A stretch of 25,546 nucleotides of DNA from positions 1-25,546 of the IMG/VR virus record IMGVR_UViG_3300036715_000838; one strand, given 5' to 3'. The stretch is from a virus. A program made the translations under genes and the position numbers. The stretch's first letter is position 1. Each line of letters begins with the position of its first letter. This document shows positions 1,713-11,347 of this stretch, in pieces. Below the pieces are notes generated by a model. It did not search any database. It had not been told where the DNA came from and worked only from the letters and a program-made list of their open reading frames with translations.

Positions 1713-1880
1713 TTACTCCTTAAAAAATTGGGGGTAATGACGCTTGACCCGCTCTGTGGCTTTCTCTATGGCTTTCACCCTGGCGAGCGGGTCATGCCCG
1801 GGGATCGGGGCTTGTGCCGCCTGTTGCAGTCGCCGCACGGCTTCCTGTGGTAGCACTTTAGCAGGCGGCAGGTTCTTCAC
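1713..1880 (-). CDS. Small basic protein of unknown function (55 aa, GTG start)
   Basis: This short frame fills the gap between the DUF2800 and DUF2815 genes. Its GTG start overlaps the DUF2800 stop codon in a GTGA arrangement, and its stop codon sits in the DUF2815 ribosome binding region (AAGGAGTAA), so it is coupled at both ends. The protein begins [20 protein letters not shown] and ends with a basic helix, [18 protein letters not shown], then QFFKE. No family is recognised. A basic helical peptide between a nuclease and an SSB could bind DNA or one of those proteins; that is inference. Its neat junctions are the main evidence that it is real. Confidence 0.72.
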
Positions 1881-3118
1881 ATCAGTTCCTCTGCCGTCAC
1901 GTTGTCGAATTCGTCGGCAGTGGCCTGAACAACAATGGCCGGCCGCTTGTCAGTAGCCGGGGCGACGCTGGGCTTGCCGTCCGATTGGGTAATGAGTTCC
2001 TGCAACTTCGGCCACTGGCGCGGCCCGATGACGCCAGCCTTGTGCAGCTTGTCGGCGGTGGTCGGGGAAATCAGCGAGAAGTCGTACATTTCTTCCAGCT
2101 TCAGGCGCATGGACTTCATGGTGGCTTCGACTTCCTTATCGTCGGCCCAACGGCGGGCGCCGCGCCGGCCTTCGACCAGCTTGTAGCCCGGCACCGGACG
2201 GCCAGCCAGCAGTTCGGCCTCGGCCTTGGCGCGGATGGCCTTACACCATGCTTCGATTAGATCAACCGCGGGCAGCAGGTTGCCCAAGGTGGCGTTGTCG
2301 AAGGCGCGCTCGGCGGCGTGCTCAAGTTGTGGGGCCACCGGCCGGGCGACATCGACAAAATCGTCGGCTACGGCGGAGAGCACGTTCTCGGTCAGCGCCG
2401 GGCAGATGGCCTTAGCACGGCAGAACCGGCATTGATCGTTGCCTGGGGCCAGGTAGTCGTCAAATCGGCCTCCATGCGTCCGACCAAGATGGAGCTCTAC
2501 GGCCGCGAAGCAGCGATGGGCCTTGACATGGACAGCCTCGCCGAACTCGCGCAGGTCCGGCACGCTGCGCACCCACTCGCTGATATGGTCGAGGCGAGGT
2601 TGCACGATGACGACGCGCGCGGTGTGGAAGTCGCCGAGAAAATCAAACTCGGTGAGCGCGGCCAGGGCGTAAATACACAACTGCTCGTTGTTCTCGGCGT
2701 CGACCTTGACGCCTCGGCCATACTTCAAATCGACGATGACCATTTCGTTGCCTGCTAGGATGACGGCGTCAGACGTGCCCTTTGCGTCTGCCTCGCCGGT
2801 AATGCCTTCAATGCTCAAGCGCTGCTCGACCATGAGTTCTCCACCTATGCTGCGCACGTAGTCGAGGTATTTCTGCACGTGGCCGGCCATATCGTCGGTG
2901 ACTTCCCAGCCTCTGCCATTTACCTGGATGACGCGGCCCAGGTAGGCGGAGGCATCGTTGCCGGCGGTCAATGCCATGGCGGCCAGTTCATGCGCAGCGG
3001 TGCCCTCGTCGGCGAATTCGCTGGATACGTCCAGGCACGTTGCCTCAAGGGCTACGCTGCCGGGGCAGTGTAGCCAACGGTGTGCGCTGCTGGGTGAGAG
3101 TTTTGCGTGCCCGCTCAT
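1877..3118 (-). CDS. DUF2800 PD-(D/E)XK nuclease, Cas4/RecB-like with iron-sulfur cysteines
   Basis: The 413-residue protein opens with [17 protein letters not shown], the family hallmark. The nuclease core is visible as [12 protein letters not shown] (D117), [10 protein letters not shown] (D130, K132) and [12 protein letters not shown] (Q146, Y150). Four cysteines, C18, C230, C233 and C239 ([12 protein letters not shown]), match the iron-sulfur cluster arrangement of Cas4 and AddB-type nucleases. The family is found in phage replication cassettes with DUF2815 and Pol I and is expected to process DNA ends for recombination or replication. GAGG lies 7 nt before the ATG, which overlaps the stop codon of the repeat-protein gene in an ATGA junction. 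Beyond about residue 270 the protein is a less conserved helical region ending in an acidic stretch ([13 protein letters not shown]). Confidence 0.9.
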
Positions 3119-4461
3119 TTTGCAACCTCGCTTTCATTTTCAACCTCTACGAATTCGCCATAGGCATCGAGGGTGTACCAGGTGTCAGGCTTGATGCAGC
3201 CTTCACCCACTATGCTTGCGCGGACATGGACCAGGCGACCGCTATCCTCGTCGCGGTAGACGAGGACGATTGCGCTGCCATCGGTAGCGCGGGCGCGCCC
3301 TTGGATGCCAAGCGATGCCGCGACTGAATCAGCGCCTTTCATATCGGCCTTTGAGTAGTCGGCCGTGTTCACGGCCGCCGAGCGGCTGCCCGTGTTCGTG
3401 GCCGTCGAGTAGCTGCCAGTGTTCAGGGCCGTCGAACGGCTGCCCATGTTCACGGCCACTGAGTAGCTGCCAGTATTCAGGGCCGTCGAGCGGTAGCCCT
3501 CGTTCCTGGCCGTTGAGTAGCTGCCATTGTTCGTGGCCGTCGAGCGGTAGCCCGTGTTCGTGGCCATCGAGCGGTATCCTGTATTCGTAGCCTTTGAGTA
3601 GTCGCCCGTGTTAGTGGCCTTTGAGTAGTCGCCCGTGTTCACAGCCACCGACCGGGCGCCCGTGTTCGTGGCAACCGAACGGTCGCCCATGTTCGCGGCC
3701 GCCGAGCGGTTGCCCGTGTTTAGTGCCGTCGAGTAGTCGCCCGCGTTCGCGGCCGTCGAGCGGTAGCCCTCGTTCATGGCAACCGAACGGTCGCCCGCGT
3801 TCACGGCCGCTGAATAGCTGCCAGTGTTCGCGGCCGTCGAGTAGCTGCCATTGTTCGTGGCCGTCGAGTAGCTGCCAGTGTTCATGGCCACCGAACGGTC
3901 GCCCATGTTCACGGCCACTGAGTAGCTGCCAGTATTCGTGGCCGCTGAGTAGCTGCCAGTATTCAGGGCCGTCGAACGGTAGCCTGCGTTCGTGGCCTCC
4001 GAACGGTCGCCCATGTTCACTGCCGCCGAGTAGCTGTCAGTGTTAACAGCAGCCGACGGGTTGCCCCTAACGAGGGCCTGCTCGGTGGTCTTGTCCAGCT
4101 TGACAAGTACCCAATCCACGGCGCGGGCGGCCAACACCGGAAGGCCGATTTCAGCCTCTACGGTAATGGCCGAGCTTGCGATATTGCAATCGCAATCGCT
4201 CCGGCTAATTTGGCCGGACGCCTTTACCACTGCGAACCGACTACCTGTCGGTGGGTAGTAGCTTAAAACATCGAGCGGGTACTCGCAGGAGTGGAATCCC
4301 GACTCGCCGGCTTTCGCCTCTTCTTCGCCTTCCAGCTCGTAGGTCTTGCCGACCTCGAACTGTGTGCCGCGATATTGCGGGGATTGATTGAATCCCATGT
4401 ATGCCGTGACGACTTCGGTAGTGGGCTGCGCTTTGGTGCGCTTCTTGGTGGTGGTGGTCAT
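3115..4461 (-). CDS. DUF7666-like protein with 27 nine-residue repeats
   Basis: The 448-residue protein has three parts. Residues 18-135 ([61 protein letters not shown]) match the DUF7666 type seen in many prophages. Residues 140-382 are 27 consecutive nine-residue repeats, consensus N-x-G-(S/D/Y)-(Y/R)-S-x-A-x. The C-terminus ([17 protein letters not shown]) is a short conserved tail. Regular Asn, Gly, Ser and Ala positions suggest a beta-helix or stacked-loop fold with an Asn ladder. Function is unknown; location in the early replication operon argues against a tail fibre. Its stop codon overlaps the DUF2800 start. Only GGGG serves as a weak ribosome binding site. Confidence 0.8.
3316..4044 (-). 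repeat. 27 tandem 27-bp coding repeats
   Basis: The repeat region of the DUF7666-like gene has a strict 27-bp period (nine codons) with no insertions across 27 units. Adjacent units differ in synonymous and non-synonymous ways; two neighbours (NTGDYSKAT twice) are identical in protein, suggesting a recent duplication. Variation concentrates at the residues after G (S, D, Y, N or A, then Y or R). Confidence 0.9.
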
Positions 4462-5636: not shown

Positions 5637-5876
5637 ATGGACATTGACACCTACCTTGAACAGGGCGGCAACGGCGCCGCCACCCAGCTTGCCAAACAAA
5701 TAGGGGTTCACCCCGTGCTTGTCAGCCAGTGGCGCAACGGCTCGCGCCAAGTGCCTGCCGCGCGCTGCCCCGACATCGAGCGCGCTACGGGCGGCGTCGT
5801 GCGCTGCGAGGATTTGCGCCCGGAAGTGGACTGGAACTATCTGCGCACCTCCGGAGACTTCGAGGTGGTGCGATGA
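5637..5876 (+). CDS. Cro/YdaS-like helix-turn-helix regulator
   Basis: The 79-residue protein starts MDIDTYLEQGGNGAATQLAK and carries a helix-turn-helix (TQLAKQIGVHPVLVSQWRNGSRQVPAARCPDIERATGG), the pattern of the YdaS/Cro family of phage regulators; the conserved ending CEDLRPEVDW is also typical. An in-frame TTG at 5625 is possible, but the ATG at 5637 fits the family start better; GGAAA upstream is a weak ribosome binding site. It is the first gene of the rightward early transcript and faces a divergent operon, the classic position of Cro. It probably represses one or both promoters at 5479-5604. No CI-like partner is in the window. The stop codon overlaps the primase start (ATGA). Confidence 0.85.
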   Translation: MDIDTYLEQGGNGAATQLAKQIGVHPVLVSQWRNGSRQVPAARCPDIERATGGVVRCEDLRPEVDWNYLRTSGDFEVVR

Positions 5877-8395
5877 CTGACAAGATTACCATCCTCAAGC
5901 ATCCTACCAACCTACTGGCAAAGACCTGGCTGGCGGATGGCACGATCAAGGCCTATGACAACGCGAAATACTTTATTCACAAAGAGGTCAGCCTTGAGAA
6001 TATCGGCGCGTTGTCGGCACTACTGACGAGCCTAGAGCACGACGCCCGGTCTTGTGTGGTCCGCGGTGTATATGTCGGCCATGACAAGGCGGCAGAGCTT
6101 GACCCGGAGTACAAACGGGGAAATGTTCGCCGCATCGCTGACCTGTACGAGGACGCGCCGCACCATTGGATGTTGGTCGAAATCGACAATTTCGAGCCGT
6201 TGTGCGCGGACCCTGTAGCGCAGCCGATGCTGGCGGTCGAAGAATTCATCACGACCAGCCTGCCTGATTGTTTTCAAGGCGCGGCCTACCACTGGCAACT
6301 GTCAAACAGCGCAGGGCACGCGAAGAATGTCGGAAAGCTCAAGGCGCACGTGTGGTTCTGGCTGGCGACACCCTACACCAGCGAGCAACTGAAAGCCTGG
6401 GCAACGGCTTTCGGGCTCGACCTCGACAAGTCCGTATTCAATGCGGTGCAGGTACACTACACGGCCGCGCCAGTGTTTGAAGCGGGAGTGGCTGACCCCG
6501 TGCCCGTGCGTAGCGGTTTCGTGCCTGGCTTAATTAGCGGCGACGTAGCGCTGGAAATTGACTCCGGGTTGTTGGCGTCGGTCAGTGCAGGCGCGCAGGC
6601 CAGCAGGCACCAGCGATTGCTTGAGGTGGTCGACAACGACCCGATAGCGCAGCGTCTGGCAGACCGCGAAATGATTAAGTCGGTCGGCAAGAAAGGCGAG
6701 TTGTACATTGAATGCCCCCTGTCTGAAAATCACACCCAGGAATCAGGCGCGACGGCGACGGTGTACTACCCGGCGCATACAGGCGGTTATGCCAATGGGG
6801 CTTTTGTTTGTCAGCACGCGCATTGCCGCGACGTGCCTCAATCGGTGTTTCTCTCAAAAATTGGCGTTGACCCCGTCGATGATGACTTCGAGGAGGTGGG
6901 CGAGGATACCCCCGCCGAAGCGGGTAAGAAAATCAGAATCCCCGAAGCGCAGCACCTCACGACCGACCAAGCCAATGCGGTGCGCATCGTCAAACGTTAC
7001 GGGCAGCGGCTCATGGTATCGGCCGACCGTTGGTTTGCCTGGGTGGGCACCCATTGGGCGCAGGATGACGCGGCGGTGTATCGCTTCGCTTTGAATCTAT
7101 CAAAGGTTGTTCACACCGAAGCAGACCAATGGCGCGCGGGGAAAGCCGACACATCCGAAGAGCGGGAGAAGAACAACAAGATCGCGGACGCCTTGATTAG
7201 CTGGGCCAAAAAATCGGAAATGCGCGGCACCATCGAGGCCGCGCTGGGACTGGCGAAACGCATGCTGGCCGTGAGGGCGGAGGATTTGGACGCTGATCAG
7301 TGGGCGCTTAATTGCGCCAATGGCACGGTCGATTTGCGTACCGGCAAGATTCGCCCTCATAACCCAGACGACTATCTGACCCGGTTCATCGGCCTGCCCT
7401 ACCTGCCCCAGGCCAAAGCCCCGTTGTTCGAAACCGTCATTGCTCGGGTGGCCTGTGAGGAAGGCGAGCCCGTGCTCCCGTTGTCGGGCTTTCTGCAACG
7501 CTGGTTCGGCTACTGCGCCACCGGCTCGGTGCGTGAACAGAAGTTCGCGGTGCATTATGGGCAAGGCCGCAATGGTAAGAGCACGGTGCTGGATATTGTG
7601 GCCGAGGTGCTTGGCGATTATGCGACCACTGCTGCGCCTGGCCTCCTTATGAGCAACAGCCGCGACAGGCACCCGACAGAGATTGCCGACCTTTCCGGGC
7701 GACGGATGGTGACGGCGCACGAAACTGGCGATGGGGGCGTGCTGCGCGAGGATTTTGTGAAGCAGGCCACGGGTGGCGACAAGATCAAGGCACGCTACAT
7801 GCGCGGTGATTTTTTTGAGTTCCTGCCGACGCACAAACTACAGCTATTGACCAACCACAAACCCGCTATCAAGGGGCAGGACGAGGGGATGTGGCGTCGC
7901 GTCCTTCTGGTGCCGTTCAAAGCCCGATTTGGCACACCAGAAGAAGTTGCCAGCGGGCGGGCCACCTGCCTACGAGATACCCGTATCGTCGAGCACCTGG
8001 CCGCCGAGAGGGAGGGCGTGCTGGCCTGGGTCATCGCGGGTGCGGTGGATTGGTTCAGGGATGGCCTCAACCCGCCCGACGTGGTGCTGGCGGCCTCGAA
8101 GGACTACCAGACAGAGCAAGACCGAGTGTTTCAGTTTGTCAACGAGGAATGCGAGCTCGGCGCAGAGTTCGAGGGGAAAATCAGCACGCCATTCGGGGGC
8201 GGCTTGTATCCGGCTTATGCTAATTGGTGCAAAGCGGGCGGGATTCACCCACTTGCAAAAAATCGCTTCCTCTCTGAGTTGGAGAGATGCGTGCCATTTT
8301 TTGCACGGTTTGATAAACACGAAGTGATCGAAGGCGCAAAGCGGCGCAGATTTGCAGCCATTCGCGGATTGCGTTTAGTCGAAAGCGAGCCTTGA
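5873..8395 (+). CDS. D5/P4-type phage primase-helicase
   Basis: The 840-residue protein combines primase-like and helicase domains. The N-terminal 270 residues contain HHWMLVEIDNF and KLKAHVWFWL, which resemble an archaeo-eukaryotic-type primase core (moderate certainty). A zinc-finger-like cluster follows at C281, H287, C313 and C318 (ECPLSENH, CQHAHC). The C-terminal half is the phage/plasmid P4-type primase helicase: D5_N region, Walker A GQGRNGKST (about 563-571), a following acidic segment near VTAHETGDG and sensor-like LLTNHKP, an SF3 AAA+ arrangement. It should unwind the origin, prime synthesis and act with the family A polymerase. The ATG at 5873 overlaps the regulator stop codon and is preferred to upstream in-frame starts. 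The candidate origin lies immediately downstream. Confidence 0.92.
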   Translation: MTDKITILKHPTNLLAKTWLADGTIKAYDNAKYFIHKEVSLENIGALSALLTSLEHDARSCVVRGVYVGHDKAAELDPEYKRGNVRRIADLYEDAPHHWMLVEIDNFEPLCADPVAQPMLAVEEFITTSLPDCFQGAAYHWQLSNSAGHAKNVGKLKAHVWFWLATPYTSEQLKAWATAFGLDLDKSVFNAVQVHYTAAPVFEAGVADPVPVRSGFVPGLISGDVALEIDSGLLASVSAGAQASRHQRLLEVVDNDPIAQRLADREMIKSVGKKGELYIECPLSENHTQESGATATVYYPAHTGGYANGAFVCQHAHCRDVPQSVFLSKIGVDPVDDDFEEVGEDTPAEAGKKIRIPEAQHLTTDQANAVRIVKRYGQRLMVSADRWFAWVGTHWAQDDAAVYRFALNLSKVVHTEADQWRAGKADTSEEREKNNKIADALISWAKKSEMRGTIEAALGLAKRMLAVRAEDLDADQWALNCANGTVDLRTGKIRPHNPDDYLTRFIGLPYLPQAKAPLFETVIARVACEEGEPVLPLSGFLQRWFGYCATGSVREQKFAVHYGQGRNGKSTVLDIVAEVLGDYATTAAPGLLMSNSRDRHPTEIADLSGRRMVTAHETGDGGVLREDFVKQATGGDKIKARYMRGDFFEFLPTHKLQLLTNHKPAIKGQDEGMWRRVLLVPFKARFGTPEEVASGRATCLRDTRIVEHLAAEREGVLAWVIAGAVDWFRDGLNPPDVVLAASKDYQTEQDRVFQFVNEECELGAEFEGKISTPFGGGLYPAYANWCKAGGIHPLAKNRFLSELERCVPFFARFDKHEVIEGAKRRRFAAIRGLRLVESEP

Positions 8396-8403
8396 CAAAT
8401 GGT

Positions 8404-8517
8404 TTGCACCTCCAGCACCTCATAAAAGGCTGTTTTACTGTTATCCTCCTATAGTAAAAATATAAAATATAATAGAGAAATAGGAAAAATAGCGTTTTTG
8501 AGGTGCAGGAGGTGCAA
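8404..8517. other. Candidate replication origin: 19-bp inverted repeat flanking an AT-rich core
   Basis: The left arm at 8404-8422 and right arm at 8499-8517 are inverted copies matching at 18 of 19 positions. Each arm holds two copies of GCACCTC (8406 and 8415; inverted as GAGGTGC at 8500 and 8509) at a 9-bp period, giving four iteron-like boxes. Between them are 76 bases rich in A and T (for example 8451-8490) in an otherwise GC-rich genome. Iterons plus an AT-rich unwinding element beside a P4-type primase is the usual origin layout; the alternatives are a regulatory cruciform or a strong RNA hairpin. This fills the non-coding stretch 8396-8539. Confidence 0.6.
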
Positions 8518-8539
8518 GCAACTTTTTACGGATAAGACT

Positions 8540-8782
8540 ATGAATGTACGAAAAGTGGCGGTGAACGAGTCCGGTTTACGAATCGGGGAGGATCACCCGA
8601 ATGCTAAGCTGACGGATGCCGAGGTGGAGCAGATTCGCTTGCTGCACAAGTCGGGCATGGGCTACGGCACCCTGGCCGAGAAGTACGAGGTCAGCAAATG
8701 GGCGATTGGCCGGATTTGCCGATATGAGCGGCGAGCGCAGACCCCGGTGAATTTTAATCAAGTGCACGTACCTAAAGACTGA
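8540..8782 (+). CDS. Small helix-turn-helix DNA-binding protein (80 aa)
   Basis: The protein contains GEDHPNAKLTDAEVEQIRLLHKSGMGYGTLAEKYEVSKWAIGRICRYERR, a resolvase-like helix-turn-helix of the sort found in small phage regulators and at the ends of HNH/NUMOD homing endonucleases. No HNH residues are present, so it is probably a DNA-binding protein rather than a nuclease. The ATG at 8540 is preferred to a TTG at 8498 that would lie inside the inverted repeat; its ribosome binding site is weak (GGATAAG). It lies between the candidate origin and the terminase genes and may regulate late genes or mark the packaging site. Its last codons include the 9-bp GTGCACGTA motif. Confidence 0.75.
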   Translation: MNVRKVAVNESGLRIGEDHPNAKLTDAEVEQIRLLHKSGMGYGTLAEKYEVSKWAIGRICRYERRAQTPVNFNQVHVPKD

Positions 8783-8800
8783 TATGGGGAAATGAGCACC

Positions 8801-10840: not shown

Positions 10841-10872
10841 GTGCACGTACCTGAAAACCTGCCGCCTACGAT
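10841..10872 (+). promoter_or_regulatory. Putative late promoter, copy 1 (before the acetyltransferase)
   Basis: GTGCACGTA (10841-10849), 16 bases, then CTACGAT (10866-10872). TACGAT fits a sigma70 -10 at its key T, A and last T positions, and CACGTA sits where a -35 would be with a 17-bp spacer. A 7-bp inverted repeat, CGGCAGG (10832) and CCTGCCG (10858), surrounds the first box. The predicted start point is near 10879. Confidence 0.55.
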
Positions 10873-10896
10873 GCTCGCAAACCTAGGAGCGAGCAT
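10871..10896 (+). promoter_or_regulatory. Start-codon hairpin of the acetyltransferase gene
   Basis: ATGCTCGC (10871-10878) and GCGAGCAT (10889-10896) form a perfect 8-bp stem with AAACCTAGGA in the loop. The right arm includes the first two bases of the ATG at 10895 and the AGGAG ribosome binding site is split between loop and stem. In any transcript from upstream the start would be hidden. Confidence 0.65.
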
Positions 10897-11347
10897 GTAC
10901 GAAATCCGCGAATCCACCGTCAGCGAAATGCTGGCCCTTGCCGGCGACCTGTTCGCCGAACACTGGGATGAAATCGCACTGAACAAACACATGATGGTGA
11001 TAAAGCCCGATACAAAACGGTACGAGGCCATGGAAGCCAGTGGTAGCCTGTTCATTTTTGCGGCTTTCGACAAGGATGGCGCGCTGGTCGGCTATTCGGT
11101 GAACTTCGTCGTGTACCACCTGCACTACGCCGACCTGTGTATTGCGTCTAATGACCTGCTGTTTGTCAGCAAAGAGCACCGCCACGGGCGCATTGGCCTG
11201 CAACTAATTCGGGCAACCGAGGCAAAGGCCCGGCGAGAAGGCGCGCGCCTCGTACTGTGGCACGCGAAACCCAACACACCGCTCGCCGAAATCATGCCCC
11301 GCCTGGGCTACGACGTGCAGGATATAACTTTCAGCCGGGAGGTTTGA
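10895..11347 (+). CDS. GNAT-family N-acetyltransferase
   Basis: The 150-residue protein has the GNAT layout: N-terminal helix, central strands (GSLFIFAAFDKDGALVGYSVNFVV), the acetyl-CoA loop and helix (LLFVSKEHRHGRIGLQLIRATEAKARREGA) and a C-terminal LGYDVQDITFSREV. The loop RHGRIG (96-101) departs from the usual R-x-x-G-x-G in having R at the fourth position. The substrate is unknown; in phages such enzymes may acetylate host or virion proteins or a toxin-like amine. The start at 10895 is chosen because AGGAG lies 5 nt upstream; an in-frame GTG at 10841 and ATG at 10871 lack a good site. It sits between terminase and portal and has its own candidate promoter and hairpin. Confidence 0.85.
   Translation: MYEIRESTVSEMLALAGDLFAEHWDEIALNKHMMVIKPDTKRYEAMEASGSLFIFAAFDKDGALVGYSVNFVVYHLHYADLCIASNDLLFVSKEHRHGRIGLQLIRATEAKARREGARLVLWHAKPNTPLAEIMPRLGYDVQDITFSREV

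Follow-up and report, generated by a model that had tools for sequence, protein, structure and literature searches.

The window, by which we mean the whole 25,546-nucleotide stretch of viral DNA analyzed here, carries a 114-base element behind a primase-helicase gene. Judging from sequence comparisons, this element is very likely the replication origin of the phage, which would be bound and melted by the adjacent enzyme. The original prediction of a candidate origin is thereby supported. This reading has the best support because the same layout recurs behind the same enzyme family (65 of 67 loci), because phage Sfi21 and plasmid pRN1 serve as anchors, and because iteron bases covary with wing residues of the enzyme in a sister clade.

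The element and its neighboring genes

The proposed origin has the following parts:

8404..8422, + strand: left arm, with iterons TTGCACCTC (8404-8412) and CAGCACCTC (8413-8421)
8423..8498, no strand: AT-rich core of 76 bp, the proposed DNA unwinding element
8430..8445, + strand: left half of an inner palindrome, CTGTTTTACTGTTATC, formed by conserved columns in the alignment of relatives
8479..8494, + strand: right half of the inner palindrome, AATAGGAAAAATAGCG, likewise formed by conserved columns
8499..8517, - strand: right arm, with iterons CTGCACCTC (8500-8508) and TTGCACCTC (8509-8517) as read on the minus strand

As was originally described, the inverted arms match at 18 of 19 positions, and we confirmed in both of them a pair of iterons, which are 9-bp repeats ending in GCACCTC. 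The claim of an AT-rich core is also borne out, in that positions 8422-8499 are 77% AT and rank first among all 78-bp windows of the 25,546-bp record, for which the mean AT content is 39.6%. Across the whole record, GCACCTC occurs at 13 places, and the tandem pattern is present once per strand, both times at the element. A detector designed to find inverted arms that repeat internally at a short period gives the element a score of 22, and its computed folding energy as single-stranded DNA is -29.3 kcal/mol, versus a mean of -9.9 for shuffled sequences (z -8.1). A comparison with Rfam yielded only miRNA-precursor hairpins, far below gathering scores, as is expected for any long inverted repeat, and these matches were rejected.

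The genes and protein domains that bear on the function of the element are as follows:

5873..8395, + strand: gene for the proposed initiator, a D5-type primase-helicase (PHROG 16950)
8123..8395, + strand: winged helix modelled with AlphaFold2 in the C-terminal region of the primase-helicase, the proposed iteron-binding domain
8303..8323, + strand: first strand of the wing; its counterpart in a sister clade (the L084 clade, see below) ends with the iteron-covarying residues
8540..8782, + strand: small HTH protein gene, directly behind the element

The reading frame of the primase-helicase as listed begins with a GTG at 5729, and homology begins with the ATG at 5873. Eight bases separate its stop (8395) from the left arm, which places the element directly behind this gene, as originally described. 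The description of the enzyme as 'P4-type' needs a qualifier. The C-terminal half of the protein matches D5_N/DUF5906/Pox_D5 in Pfam (an SF3-type helicase) and the PHROG name is DNA primase, while the N-terminal domain has no Pfam family above threshold and matched no PDB sequence. The model of the C-terminal region (AlphaFold2 model mde1a9f497f11) has a mean pLDDT of 79.9. A sequence match links the enzyme family to the SaPI5 primase-helicase (7ola), and the model of a homologue, L084, aligns with the SaPI5 fold from end to end (Z 28.7-29.1), with four rows from annotated phage records left out of these structure-model alignments.

A reading frame similar to that at 8540-8782 occupies the equivalent position in L003, L004, L007 and L032-L036, and most of the window's clade has the small HTH gene right behind the candidate origin. 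The product of this gene is possibly a replication or late-gene regulator. An Sf6-like small terminase gene then starts at 8792, ~275 bp downstream of the element, and is followed by the late genes.

Other genes in the window merit brief mention. An acetyltransferase-like gene (10841-11347, + strand) lies between the large terminase and head-tail connector genes. A DUF2800/PD-(D/E)XK nuclease-like protein (1877-3118, - strand) is encoded in opposite orientation to the primase, near a Gp2.5-like single-strand binding/annealing protein (1160-1708, - strand), and these two likely form a recombination module. A 448-aa protein with DUF7666 (3115-4461, - strand) matches PHROG 27197 at seven separate places in the C-terminal part, a sequence pattern which suggests that it is internally repetitive.

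The layout recurs behind related primase-helicases

Relatives of the element were gathered through homology of the enzyme. Searches with DNA alone came back empty, both when positions 8350-8600 were compared with annotated phages for similarity and when viral contigs were searched for the exact GCACCTC layout, indicating that the iteron sequence is not shared and that only the layout is. A scan of genome contigs with the family alignment recovered only three loci.

We applied the detector, which seeks inverted arms with an internal periodicity of 8-10 bp, to 67 non-redundant loci. In 65 of these an element is found within 1.3 kb behind the primase-helicase gene, and 55 have it no further than 450 bp away; over all such 450-bp zones, the off-site rate predicts ~0.4 chance elements. 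This rate comes from 806 kb of related DNA, in which the background of the detector is ~1 per 67 kb: of the 21 matches outside the zone, about nine represent the element at a position further downstream and about a dozen are truly off-site. Block shuffling of the surveyed regions gave only scores below 20. The element is also present in most of the further loci collected later, and no element was detected within 1.3 kb downstream of the homologues L046, L048, L181, L184, L188, L190 and L194. Phage phi105 shows the same architecture behind its primase-helicase gene, and the same detector scan found the layout 471 bp behind the gene in Bordetella phage BIP-1, which is treated in the paper on the pRN1 origin (PMC4234260).

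The original prediction held that the arms would be conserved and the core free to vary, and the pattern among relatives proved to be reversed, since they keep the layout and the inner palindrome while the iteron sequences vary. The closest relatives, which are 87-89% identical, have nearly unchanged boxes, and distant relatives have other iterons at the same place in the same layout (e.g., TGTCCCGCG, TGTCTGGT, TTGAACCGT and TGTACCCAC). All columns without any variation in an alignment of the window's own clade lie in the core, where they comprise TTT and AA/AAA within TTTTCCTATTATC ... AATAGGAAAA.

A further regularity emerges when the two arms of each locus are compared. The arms mismatch in 22 of 720 comparisons (3%) at positions that are identical in both iterons of an arm, versus 71 of 264 (27%) at positions that are not, counts that come from related rather than independent loci and are therefore given without a p-value. 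This pattern is what would be expected if repeated protein sites, rather than stem pairing as such, were under selection, and it fits that account better.

Palindromes resembling TGCAAAAA...TTGCA are present close to the end of the primase gene in the window (8254-8305) and, in the relatives L029, L033-L036 and L039, behind the element. This type of palindrome is not enriched in the window, where 3 are found and 1.5 are expected.

Comparison with known replication origins

The element resembles several origins that have been described previously. In Sfi21, the layout lies inside the annotated 'origin of replication', a 302-bp non-coding phage-inhibitory sequence located directly behind the primase gene orf382. 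Like the window, Sfi21 has two repeats per inverted arm (TTTAGTTACTTAGTTACT), separated by a gap of 71 with a core that is 89% AT. Unlike the window, it uses a different iteron sequence and has extra GTTAC repeats outside the arms.

A second anchor is provided by the Sulfolobus plasmid pRN1, wherein a stem-loop of ~100 bp behind orf904 is necessary for replication and can be moved, and a terminator is dispensable (Berkner et al. 2014, PMC4234260). The authors of that study described pRN1 as being without the iteron structure of many plasmids (PMC4234260). We find that each arm (L121, 5085-5184) contains two 9-bp TGTCC repeats, TGTCCATAG TGTCCAACT. As in the window, ~100 bp behind a replication-protein gene are organized as inverted arms, here of 20 bp, around an AT-rich loop, although pRN1 is an archaeal plasmid whose enzyme has an archaeo-eukaryotic primase domain.

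In SaPI elements, the origin comes right after the rep gene and is recognized by the C-terminal domain of the Rep protein, and SCCmec Cch2 likewise uses its C-terminal domain to bind downstream repeats (PMC7581432). The SaPI5 Rep/Cch2 systems share with the window the placement of iterons directly downstream of the initiator gene and an enzyme related by sequence and fold, a comparison that is based on the cited origin description and the enzyme. SCCmec differs from the window in having three AAGTG boxes, and thus in iteron number and layout.

In phage P4, the record annotation places in crr, just behind the alpha gene, 9-bp-spaced type-1 repeats with inverted partners; crr falls below the threshold of our detector, and the likeness is that given by this annotation. 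Unlike the window, P4 has a duplicated crr with a second origin kilobases away, and its alpha protein has a TOPRIM-type primase (PMC4234260). The P4 arrangement of TGTTCACC repeats in two 120-bp crr copies plus a distant ori is absent from the window, where a single GCACCTC element is found in a 25.5-kb record that is possibly incomplete.

The features shared with the kind of origin represented by Sfi21, pRN1 and SaPI are the position behind the initiator gene, the short iterons flanking an AT-rich region, and an SF3-type helicase with a predicted C-terminal winged helix. This kind of origin is already known, and the element would be a further instance of it.

Wing residues of the enzyme track the iteron bases in a sister clade

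The clade composed of L029 and L052-L098 has the iteron TTG-XYZ-CGT, in which XYZ is a variable triplet. Its enzymes, whose residues are given here in L084 numbering, are ~30% identical to the window enzyme in the C-terminal region. With iteron register and triplets assigned partly by hand, we scanned ~330 columns of the C-terminal half of the enzyme in 38 sequences for covariation with the iteron. Among these 38 sequences, Y is tracked best by residue 868, whose column holds all of Y's information, X is tracked best by residue 869, and residue 867 carries the most information on Z among the leading columns. In the L084 model (mean pLDDT 86), residues 867-869 lie where the first strand of the wing ends.

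The pairings are specific. At position 868, Lys or Arg accompanies G, whereas Gln, Met or Leu accompanies A, Asp accompanies C, and Ile accompanies T, a rule for Y that fits 46 of 47 loci (the exception is L142). At position 869, all 18 Asp residues are paired with C and 13 of 15 Asn residues with G or A. Among loci with G at Y, the occurrence of Lys or Arg goes with the triplet in every case, with Lys for CGA (9/9) and TGG (5/5) and Arg for CGT (8/8) and TGA (5/5). The near-identical loci L078 (iteron AGTGGCGTT) and L082 (AGTGACGTT) are one iteron base apart, and in this domain their enzymes differ only in the wing. Within the window's own clade, L034 and L112 also differ by one iteron base, with changes in the wing and at other places, and this pair is only suggestive.

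Changes were also placed on a helicase tree, which was built without the C-terminal region. On this tree, Y changes 11 times and the residue class at 868 changes 11 times. Independent pairs agree in direction in 5 of 5 cases for Y and in 7-8 of 9 for X, and the opposite direction is never observed. For 14 new loci outside the original sample, the rule predicts Y correctly in 13, which is a weak test given that a constant guess of G would give 12.

Because residues 868 and 869 track Y and X, and because these changes recur independently on the tree, the enzyme itself very probably reads the iterons through its wing, as far as sequence variation can tell. RFX1 contacts DNA through its wing, which fits with wing residues tracking iteron bases. 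A likeness of the ASFV C962R tail, identified as a structural match, to RFX1 and to the origin-binding domain of P4 alpha has been reported (PMC10516667).

We consider it likely that D5-family primase-helicases more generally use a simple wing code, wherein wing residues in succession contact successive variable iteron bases, and that origin and initiator switch together in small steps.

A model for initiation and its competitors

These observations are compatible with the following model. The C-terminal winged helix of the primase-helicase would bind the four iterons, and in the TTG-XYZ-CGT clade residue 868 would read Y, residue 869 would read X and, less surely, residue 867 would read Z. 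If adjacent wing residues read the variable bases, then initiator and origin would change their specificity together. Two SF3 helicase rings would be positioned face to face on either side of the core by the two inverted iteron pairs, both rings would melt the core in an ATP-driven manner, and the primase domain would then prime both strands to establish bidirectional forks. The inner palindrome perhaps provides contacts for the helicase hairpins or start sites for priming.

For a bidirectional origin, a GC-skew minimum is expected, and a minimum at the element had been proposed. This was not observed: the extremum nearest to the element is a maximum, within ~1.6 kb, in the window and in three near relatives. 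The fifth genome examined instead has a minimum as its nearest extremum, at a distance of almost 5 kb. Skew is not decisive in the window because gene orientation switches near the replication module.

The element might instead be extruded as a cruciform or stem-loop that is recognized by its shape, with the repeats inside the arms being incidental. Strong folding is seen not only in the window but in four relatives including pRN1, for which the authors proposed a stem-loop origin and found in one mutant that stem symmetry mattered (PMC4234260). Recognition of shape would not require a direct repeat within the arms, and such a repeat is present at almost every locus. Also against it, arm mismatches are concentrated at the non-repeated positions (27% versus 3%) and iteron bases track specific wing residues. 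We therefore regard recognition by shape as unlikely. A cruciform might still act in an auxiliary role, with protein sites being the better fit to the mismatch pattern.

The location of the element between the primase and terminase genes, with an HTH gene directly behind it, could also suggest a terminator or operator for the early and late genes, acting either as an RNA hairpin or as a site for the downstream HTH protein. Yet there is no promoter-like or terminator-like site in 8300-8800, and a loop of this length is far beyond what an intrinsic terminator would have. Moreover, the pRN1 and phi105 elements lie behind the primase gene without annotated terminase genes thereafter, and in pRN1 it is the terminator that can be dispensed with and the element that cannot (PMC4234260), making such a function very unlikely. 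The proximity of the Sf6-like small terminase gene, which starts at 8792, raises the idea of a packaging site (pac or cos) for its product. This proposal is hardly credible given that the element is also present in pRN1, a non-viral plasmid with three annotated genes, none for a terminase, and that phi105 and Sfi21 have no annotated terminase in the stretch read behind the element.

Implications of the origin reading

Recognition of the element as a probable replication origin has consequences beyond this phage. Neither a wing-iteron code nor a single layout uniting these origins was found in the open-access literature that we searched, and the code appears to be undescribed so far. Our comparisons suggest a common architecture for the pRN1 stem-loop and the origins of P4, SaPI and Sfi21. 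The origins of metagenomic phages are rarely known, and this layout allows an origin to be found from sequence across a large family of mobile elements and phages that extends from bacteria to archaea. Furthermore, the covariation of wing and iteron makes the specificity between initiator and origin, as well as its evolution, directly testable with natural protein pairs. If the wing code holds true, the origins of related phages would be mutually blind and origin specificity would be predictable from sequence, which may bear on why a multicopy origin stops certain phages from infecting but leaves others unaffected.
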